This document shows positions 21,194-53,047 of a DNA stretch of 64,000 bases, one piece after another. Within the stretch, counting starts at the first letter, position 1. Each line of letters begins with the position of its first letter. The notes beneath the pieces are model-generated. The model searched no databases, was not told the DNA's origin, and saw only the letters and a program-made list of their open reading frames with translations. Position numbers and translations under genes: made by a program. The stretch is taken from the NCBI GenBank assembly GCA_003168335.1, contig PMSM01000002.1, positions 62,001 through 126,000 of the forward strand, in the 5' to 3' direction. Source of the stretch: Blastocatellia bacterium (GTDB lineage Bacteria > Acidobacteriota > Blastocatellia > Pyrinomonadales > Pyrinomonadaceae).

Positions 21194-21458
21194 CAGCTAT
21201 CAGCGGAAGTCTAATGAGCGTTGGCTAATTTCTCAGCTTGACAGTCGTGGGCCAGGTCGCTAAGTTCGACACTTCCACGAATATCGATCTTTGCAAGGAA
21301 AGTAGAGGCGCGACCTTCAAGAGTAGCCGAGTCCGAAAGAACGGGAAGGGTTCGAAATAGGACTCAGTCGAAAGGGAGAGGTCGCCGAAACTTGCCCGTG
21401 CGTCTTCAGGCCGGGGCGAGTTGGTTGCTGTGGCTAAATCCGCAGGACTGTCACCGAG

Positions 21459-21514
21459 AGTGGCCCAGACTTCAGTCTGGGATTGAATAACCACAGACTG
21501 AAGTCTGTGCCACT
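21459..21514. repeat. Double palindrome in the S41-lysC gap
   Basis: CCCAGACTTCAGTCTGGG at about 21464-21481 and CACAGACTGAAGTCTGTG at 21492-21509 are each self-complementary and are also complementary to each other (GTGGCCCAGACTTC with its complement in the right arm). The 489-bp gap contains this element and the next one (21615-21667). I see no gene in the remainder. Confidence 0.65.
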
Positions 21515-21614
21515 GGTGAAGAGCTACGACCAGCGCCGCGCCGGATGTTTTACGGCGCAAAAGTTTCTCGAGATTGAGGGGCCAGTCGTATGCTTTGCGA
21601 TTGGCCCTTTTTAT

Positions 21615-43283: not shown

Positions 43284-43967
43284 ATGTGCGGACGCTATAC
43301 TCTTCGAACTCGCGGTAGCGCAAAGCTCTATGGAGTGCCCGCTTCACAGCTTCCTCTGTTGGTCCCACGCTACAACATAGCTCCGAGCCAGGACGTTCCG
43401 GTAATAGTCGCGCGCGGCGCTGAGCGAGAGATTGATCTGTCTCGATGGGGACTCATTCCGTCGTGGAGCAAAGAACCGAAGGGATTCATCAACGCCCGCG
43501 CCGAAACGCTAGAAGATAAGCCAAGTTTTAGTGAATCGTTTCAAAGACGAAGGTGCTTAATTCCCGGGGACGGCTTCTTTGAGTGAGCGCGCGGCGGACG
43601 ATCGAAACAACCCTACTACTTCCAAATGAAGGATGAATCGCAATTCGCCTTTGCCGGCATCTGGGACAAATGGGAACGGGACGACGTGTCGATAGCCTCG
43701 TGCGCGATTATTACCACCACTCCTAACGAACTACTGGCCACGATCCATGATCGAATGCCGGTGATCCTTAGCACTGAAGTTCAAGAGAGTTGGCTGCGCG
43801 AAGATGCTAAAACCGCAGAGTTGAAAGAGCTGCTCGTTCCGTTCCCAGGGTCTGAGATGAAGAGCTTTCCAGTGAGCTCCCGGGTGAATCGGCCGCAGGT
43901 TGACGATGCGCAGTTGGTTGAACCAATAGATATCAGTCAGGAATTGACAAGCGGGATGCTCTTCTGA
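43284..43967 (+). pseudogene. SRAP (YedK/HMCES)-family protein with in-frame TGA
   Basis: The first part (MCGRYTLRTRG..., catalytic Cys2, FINARAET) runs to GDGFFE and then meets TGA at 43584-43586. The same frame continues directly with ARGGRSKQPYYFQMKDESQFAFAGIWDKW and includes the catalytic His region IHDRMPVIL, ending at 43967. The family normally has GF(Y/F)EW here, so the TGA replaces the Trp codon TGG. SRAP proteins crosslink to abasic sites in single-stranded DNA. The gene is probably inactive as written, unless the stop is a sequencing error. Its end overlaps the resolvase by 31 bases on the other strand. Confidence 0.85.
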
Positions 43968-52560: not shown

Positions 52561-52708
52561 GGCCAAGCCCTCCCAGTTCTAGCGTTGTCCTTATCACGGC
52601 TCTTGGTGTGATGTCCCGCGGGCCGCATGATTCCCGCATAGCTAACAGCATGTTACCTACAGTTGATGTAGAATTACGAAGCCTCAAAGAAAAAATGGGG
52701 GAGGACTC

Positions 52709-53047
52709 ATGGCAGCTACAATTTCACGGGATGAGCTGAAGATGAAGCTTGATCGCGGAGAACAGTTTCGACTTGTCGAGACTTTACCGGCGGCTACGTA
52801 TCATCACGCGCATTTACCTGGCGCGATCAACTTGCCGCCCGACCAGGTGATGCAACTCGCTCCGAAGCTTTTGCCGGACAAAGCGGCTGACATTGTGGTT
52901 TACTGCGCCAGTCCCACTTGAAATGCTTCCGAGAACGCCGCCCGTGAACTGGCGGCGCTGGGTTATGCGAACGTTCGCGACTACGCCGAAGGCAAACAGG
53001 GCTGGATTGACGCAGGGTTACCGACTGAGAGTGAGCACAAACATTGA
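52709..53047 (+). CDS. Rhodanese-like protein with in-frame TGA (recoded Sec or nonsense mutation)
   Basis: The gene starts with a strong SD (GGGGGAGGA, 6 bases before the ATG at 52709). DELKMKLDRGEQFRLVETLPAATYHHAHLPGAINLPPDQV is the rhodanese N-terminal region, and IVVYCASPT has the active-site Cys. The next codon is TGA (52919-52921). The frame then continues without break as NASENAARELAALGYANVRDYAEGKQGWIDAGLPTE to a TGA at 53045-53047, which is what the family shows. By analogy to related proteins a Cys (TGC/TGT) is expected at the TGA. A hairpin (52936-52957, 7 GC-rich pairs, loop of 8) begins 15 bases after the TGA. Either a Sec codon with SECIS, or a simple nonsense mutation. Confidence 0.7.
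52936..52957 (+). promoter_or_regulatory. Hairpin with SECIS-like placement after the TGA
   Basis: CGCCGCC (52936-52942), loop CGTGAACT (52943-52950), GGCGGCG (52951-52957). The apical loop begins 22 bases after the TGA and has G as second loop base. The known rule for bacterial SECIS is a loop 16-37 bases after the UGA with a G among its first two bases, so both conditions are met. No bulged U in the stem was found. GC-rich hairpins also arise by chance in this gene. Confidence 0.35.

Follow-up and report, generated by a model that had tools for sequence, protein, structure and literature searches.

Does the TGA codon that interrupts a rhodanese-like gene in this Blastocatellia genome encode selenocysteine (Sec), or is it a nonsense mutation in a gene that is decaying? 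An earlier note on this DNA had raised both readings and had considered decay a serious one, pointing to a second interrupted gene nearby. We take up the question here for the window, that is, the whole stretch of 64,000 nucleotides that was analysed, and follow it from the frame itself to its homologues, the selenocysteine machinery of the genome, the hairpin downstream of the TGA and the likely chemistry of the product. The features concerned are collected in Table 1.

Table 1. Coordinates of features in the window and the basis on which each is assigned.
Feature	Position	Strand	Basis or remark
Predicted Sec rhodanese gene	52709-53047	+	112 residues including Sec71; translation, PF00581
Probable ribosome-binding site GGAGG	52700-52704	+	4 bases 5' of the ATG; from sequence
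Cys66 codon TGC, where the rhodanese active-site loop begins	52904-52906	+	invariant in 28 aligned homologues
In-frame TGA, codon 71, predicted to be read as Sec71	52919-52921	+	TGA/Cys counts in homologues
Candidate SECIS-type hairpin	52936-52957	+	7-bp stem 52936-52942/52951-52957, loop CGTGAACT, G at 52944
SRAP gene	43284-43967	+	in-frame TGA 43584-43586, codon 101; otherwise complete SRAP domain, 234 bits
Lysine riboswitch	21295-21534	+	69.9 bits; just 5' of the next entry
Probable aspartokinase gene	21590-23089		amino-acid kinase and ACT domains

A rhodanese gene interrupted by a single TGA

The gene starts at the ATG 52709-52711 and ends at the TGA 53045-53047, as read from the sequence and its translation, and its frame is interrupted solely by the TGA at codon 71; in the mechanical list of open reading frames, it appears as 70 residues only. 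The read-through protein matches PF00581 from residue 7 to residue 101 (E 9.4e-15; 55.4 bits, cut-off 22.2), and this match over the domain, together with the rhodanese fold of the model described below, places it in the rhodanese superfamily. The gene is rhodanese-like, as had been claimed, and the part behind the TGA continues as an ordinary domain with no further stop before the terminal one. The TGA had been placed six residues after the active-site Cys, which needs amending, as codon 71 lies five residues past Cys66 (C-x4-U) and is the sixth only when the Cys itself is counted. The window neighbours, namely a DUF5715 protein, an AraC/DJ-1 regulator and two proteins without a Pfam match, give no functional hint for the rhodanese. 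Elsewhere in the window, a lysine riboswitch precedes what is probably an aspartokinase gene, an ordinary arrangement.

Codon 71 in homologues

Of 162 genomes of the class, 17 hold close copies of the gene (59-99% identity), 23 in all when the gene itself is counted, and every one of the 23 has one TGA at codon 71 and no other stop. A paralogue in the window genome, 80% identical, has kept the TGA as well. The gene is patchy, with no match at E 1e-10 in three of the six other genomes of the genus. Nine genomes in a phylum sample of 396 have a match at E 1e-18; of the seven among them not yet counted, six carry the TGA, each together with selB, tRNA-Sec or both, and the seventh (G444) has Cys at position 71 and a tRNA-Sec, with no selB found.

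A single scan of named species genomes gave 84 relatives, and we work with the best 80; these and the class set overlap through shared contigs. Codon 71 in the best 80 of 84 is TGA in 43, TGC in 27 and TGT in nine, and in the remaining one it lies beyond the match and is unreadable, so that the 79 readable loci hold no residue other than Sec or Cys at this position. The Cys expected here in the earlier note is thus present in 36 of these relatives, and the alignment of homologues that it had proposed as a check returns TGA or Cys only. An in-frame UGA that is conserved, with Cys in other homologues, is the pattern looked for in a selenoprotein gene, and it is the pattern found. Since Cys at position 71 was written into one of the three search patterns, the Cys share may be inflated; the TGA loci cannot stem from that pattern.

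The 43 TGA loci in the best 80 of 84 all come from records with MAG in the title, with no cultured strain among them. They span several Acidobacteriota groups and also carry the labels Armatimonadaceae, Abditibacteriaceae, Gemmatimonadetes, Chthoniobacterales, Thermoleophilaceae, Actinobacteria, Dehalococcoidia, Chloroflexi, Dormibacteraeota and Desulfobulbaceae. In four relatives labelled Chloroflexi or Dehalococcoidia (L155, L156, L157 and L161), the first loop Cys is also TGA, giving U-x4-U. Resolution of the tree is poor, with 40 of 79 inner branches open; on it, Sec and Cys exchange at least six times, at least one exchange is forced by starred branches, and gain and loss are not separable.

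Some relatives are longer than the window protein. Both U-x4-U relatives whose translations were inspected have an extra C-terminal part, and a TGA relative in genome G246 (L097) sits in a 446-residue frame, the C-terminal half of which we take to resemble an ion channel. In L158, a relative with one TGA, Pfam matches the rhodanese domain alone in the 200 residues scanned. Four distant Cys relatives from Proteobacteria (L163, L165, L168 and L169) have about 100 extra N-terminal residues, presumably resembling an ArsR-type regulator.

Selenocysteine machinery

The window genome, 5.16 Mb in 14 contigs and 96.6% complete, contains the whole set of genes expected of a bacterium that makes selenoproteins. 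The search for selA, selB, selC and selD that had been proposed as a check finds all four: selA at 530 bits, selB at 381 and selD at 360, each over its curated cut-off, and a tRNA-Sec at 67.3 bits, also over its cut-off, with anticodon TCA according to ARAGORN. When the E-value is set loosely, the models for selB, selD and tRNA-Sec hit every one of 14 control genomes, and thus only matches over the cut-offs are counted. A second tRNA-Sec-like match (C9:297776) scores 47.6 bits against a cut-off of 47. The selD of the window genome (contig C7, locus L088) is a selenoprotein gene itself, with an in-frame TGA at plus-strand coordinate 2400 in the motif CSGU, which we take to be the usual place of Sec in selD.

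Across the class, 13 of the 17 genomes with the TGA gene have selB and the other four (75-83% complete) have tRNA-Sec. Since 131 of the 162 class genomes have selB, its co-occurrence with the TGA gene is necessary but weak evidence. Two TGA genomes (G185 and G355) have no tRNA-Sec at E 1e-9, yet both have selB; in G418 and four class genomes, tRNA-Sec is present and selB is not found.

The hairpin downstream of the TGA

The 7-bp hairpin with a suitable loop G that had been noticed soon after the TGA is indeed there, with a gap of 14 nt between the TGA and the stem and of 21 nt between the TGA and the loop. The loop (52943-52950) has 8 nt, with G as its second base, and the hairpin has a folding energy of -13.5 kcal/mol (-20.4 for a 51-nt fold). 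The bSECIS rules set out in a recent review (PMC13188914) are a loop of 3-9 nt, a stem of 4-16 bp, a G within the first two loop bases, a distance of 16-37 nt from the UGA and a free energy of at most -7.5, and the window hairpin lies within all of them. In a simple count over both strands of the window, however, 97 of 2230 TGAs are followed by some hairpin that obeys these rules and seven, the rhodanese one included, by one that is equally stable; the hairpin alone is thus weak evidence. When its codons are resampled, it proves only mildly more stable than the resulting sequences (z -1.54, fraction 0.067), and the mean z over 24 loci, one of them a duplicate (L087), is -0.88. We therefore set aside the folding stability of a single hairpin as proof of a SECIS element, as it is not decisive against codon-resampled sequence. 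What exceeds chance in these comparisons is the conservation of the hairpin across homologues, not its stability in a single sequence.

This conservation is seen first of all at the level of codons. In the class genes, codon +7 after the TGA is GCC and codon +8 is CGT in all 23, and codon +9 is GAA in 21 of the 22 that have Glu, whereas Arg residues conserved in other parts of the gene are encoded by four to five different codons. The pooled synonymous difference pS in 22 genes is 0.037 at +7 to +9 against 0.707 upstream, with 0.791 downstream of the TGA outside the hairpin, and of 108 five-codon windows, the eight with the lowest pS all start at +3 to +10. L087, which is the same gene as L033, is left out of the codon, stem-pair and pS counts for this type, and L053, with a frame break behind the hairpin, out of the pS and pN counts. 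Second, the loop motif goes with the TGA. Among the best 80 of 84 relatives, GCC-CG[T/G]-G stands at the hairpin spot in 34 of 34 TGA loci with at least 45% identity and in none of the 20 Cys loci; below 45% identity, it is found in none of nine TGA loci and none of 16 Cys loci, and the nine distant TGA loci presumably have other hairpins in its place. Third, the pairing itself is kept, being formed in 94.4% of the alignment cells, and slid versions of the stem do worse. Three of the seven stem pairs show changes on both sides and three never vary, which is why covariation is modest; the outermost pair is unpaired in nine of 23 genes. Taken together, the codon and pairing data indicate that selection acts on the hairpin as RNA, beyond what the protein needs.

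Alternative readings of the TGA

Three other explanations of the TGA have to be weighed. The one that survives best, though very improbable, is that the UGA is read as some other residue, by a near-cognate tRNA or under a changed code, or that it serves as a regulated stop that yields a 70-residue product. Against this, TGA also terminates the rhodanese gene itself and, by mechanical count, 15 of the 41 long frames of the window, the genome holds a complete Sec system and, in the best 80 of 84 relatives, Cys is the sole exchange partner and the loop motif accompanies the TGA.

Second, a nonsense mutation in a decaying rhodanese gene has only a minute probability. It was suggested by the SRAP gene of the same window, which also has an in-frame TGA, but that TGA is unrelated. 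The residue at this place is Trp in five other SRAP genes, two of which belong to the window genome, where they are open frames; the interrupted SRAP gene is an ordinary broken or misread copy with no bearing on the rhodanese. The rhodanese TGA, on the other hand, is at the same place in all 23 close copies from 17 genomes, with pN/pS of 0.16-0.18 behind the TGA against 0.27 before it (22 genes), so that the nonsense reading fails on a TGA that is kept together with codons under purifying selection behind it; the conserved hairpin and Cys as the only alternative at codon 71 (best 80 of 84) argue the same way, and decay is not the serious alternative that it had seemed.

Finally, a read error or assembly artefact has a next to negligible probability, since, although the TGA relatives all come from MAGs, the codon recurs in many assemblies (43 named-record loci among the best 80 of 84) and in the paralogue of the window genome.

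We thus return to the selenoprotein reading, which the comparison upholds: the UGA is conserved, Sec and Cys exchange at its place, the predicted SECIS hairpin is conserved beyond the needs of the protein and the machinery is complete. On these grounds, UGA codon 71 is almost certainly decoded as Sec, and we infer that this insertion takes place in the cell.

A second type of Sec rhodanese

Close to selB, the window genome encodes another type of Sec rhodanese, with the motif YCTUP (contig C14, locus L002, 801-1130 on the minus strand, TGA 939-941); its domain scores 77 bits with NF041203, below the cut-off of 115. Its UGA lies two residues past the loop Cys, against five in the type of the window gene. 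The second-type hairpin has five pairs and a 5-base loop that starts 21 nt behind its own UGA, and the loop start GCC-N-G is invariant in 27 of 27 genes, in an alignment made without L064 (a spurious pattern match) and L087. The two types align gap-free from the loop Cys on with their UGAs three residues apart, and the hairpin thus follows the UGA rather than the protein. Four Cys relatives of the second type (L055, L060, L061 and L072) lack GCC-CG[T/G]-G at the hairpin spot. In two loci (L026 and L033, from genomes G060 and G130), both types occur one after the other, with about 100 bases between them. A covariance model of the second type, run on the window genome, recovered the known gene near selB at 6.4e-7 and otherwise only matches at 0.089 or above; as a route to further selenoproteins, it gave no list.

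Active-site loop and predicted mechanism

An AlphaFold2 model built from 28 sequences has a mean pLDDT of 88.7 and a rhodanese fold, with a strand at 61-65, the loop at 66-72 and a helix at 73-83. Among solved structures, it comes closest to 6mxv (E about 1e-9) and to BH2092 of Bacillus halodurans (3nhv, likewise about 1e-9, and 3o3w); aligning it to 6mxv by HMM takes an insertion of two residues. BH2092 superimposes on the model with a TM-score of up to 0.84 at 26-27% identity and carries C-x4-C in the aligned loop, with Cys instead of Sec.

Classical rhodaneses, as described in PMC8533005, have a six-residue loop that begins with the catalytic Cys and ends with Arg, Thr or Ser, a last residue that helps in splitting thiosulfate. 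In the present family, the sixth place of the loop is Sec or Cys and not one of these three, and we therefore favour, with some reserve, a predicted Cys66-Sec71 redox pair over a thiosulfate enzyme. The sequence of events that we propose is as follows. SelB and tRNA-Sec(UCA) would decode the UGA under the direction of the hairpin 15-36 nt past it, to give a single-domain rhodanese of 112 residues with Sec at codon 71. Sec71 would then lie in the active-site loop, five residues past the invariant Cys66 and just before the next helix, where the two most likely form a reversible selenenylsulfide. The protein may thus act as a thiol- or selenol-dependent reductase or as a persulfide carrier, and not as a classical thiosulfate:cyanide sulfurtransferase.

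Relation to known selenocysteine rhodaneses

Sec rhodaneses are already known from other bacteria, as the earlier note had stated. Table 1 of the 2026 review (PMC13188914) has five predicted prokaryotic forms, UxxS, UxxG, CxU, UxxG and UxxxxU for forms 1 to 5. The window protein, with U71-N-A-S74, fits form 1 (type sequence WP_010941598.1) by its motif and differs from forms 2-4, which are UxxG or CxU, and from form 5, UxxxxU. No NCBIfam model takes the window protein above its cut-off. The best profile is that of TsoB (NF045694; 45.3 bits over residues 5-111, missing the cut-off of 805), a rhodanese/DsbD fusion-like protein with UxxxxU, of which the window protein shares the x4 loop spacing; unlike TsoB, which has two Sec, it has Cys at the first position and a single domain. 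The CxU family rhodanese_LYCAU (NF041203) has related CxU Sec rhodaneses in the class, one of them the gene close to selB in the window genome, but the window protein scores 38 bits against its cut-off of 115 and has Sec five, not two, residues past the loop Cys.

For the phylum, four selenoproteins of three families in Acidobacteria are given in a 2006 survey (PMC1794560), and three known and no new selenoprotein genes in one Acidobacteriota genome in a 2025 study (PMC12013277); no Sec rhodanese from Acidobacteriota was found in the portions of the literature searched. What we describe is thus a branch of an already known group, centred on Acidobacteriota and without an NCBIfam model above cut-off.

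An arsenic neighbourhood in part of the family

The counts in this section refer to the best 80 of 84 relatives. In eight of the 34 TGA loci with at least 45% identity, the flanks (up to 4 kb) contain a gene for an ArsM-like methyltransferase. In all eight (L102, L103, L106, L107, L108, L110, L113 and L116), the Sec rhodanese comes first and the ArsM-like frame begins 139-302 bases after the TGA; in L116, this frame is called as three pieces. The same 34 loci have ArsS in four, a TIGR04283 glycosyltransferase in five, TIGR04282 in three and a fatty-acid hydroxylase in six. One representative each was scored for ArsS (448 bits with TIGR04167, cut-off 300), TIGR04283 (219, cut-off 182) and TIGR04282 (167, cut-off 134); the ArsM-like representative is below the cut-off of every arsenic model, the best being 348 of 500 (NF040538). 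None of the 20 Cys loci with at least 45% identity has any of the five neighbour genes, and the 16 distant Cys loci have the hydroxylase in six, ArsS in three and the glycosyltransferase in three. Arsenosugar-type genes or the hydroxylase also lie near L163 and L165. We also weighed whether the ArsM-like neighbours end in Sec (CC-TGA), but gave this up, as one of the six ends inspected has TAG.

The ArsM-like clusters with hydroxylase, glycosyltransferases and ArsS are possibly an arsenolipid or arsenosugar cluster in Acidobacteriota. One could go further and see in the C-x4-U rhodaneses a dedicated organoarsenic selenoenzyme branch, for instance reductases that use a selenol on methylated or thiolated arsenicals and would feed ArsM, ArsS and the arsenosugar glycosyltransferases, with stand-alone copies doing the same for arsenic made elsewhere; we consider this unlikely, if conceivable. 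Neither rhodanese copy of the window genome is in an ArsM-type cluster, and a search of that genome for ArsS gave nothing over cut-off. The arsenic link is thus a clue for some members of the family rather than a function for this gene.

Concluding remarks

The Sec rhodanese is widespread in Acidobacteriota genomes, and standard gene callers halt at its TGA. The gain is a clean set of TGA genes and Cys relatives with a near-invariant hairpin that is predicted to direct insertion. Furthermore, the recurring ArsM/ArsS neighbourhood offers a first testable lead to a function for a group of selenoproteins that reviews list as predicted only.
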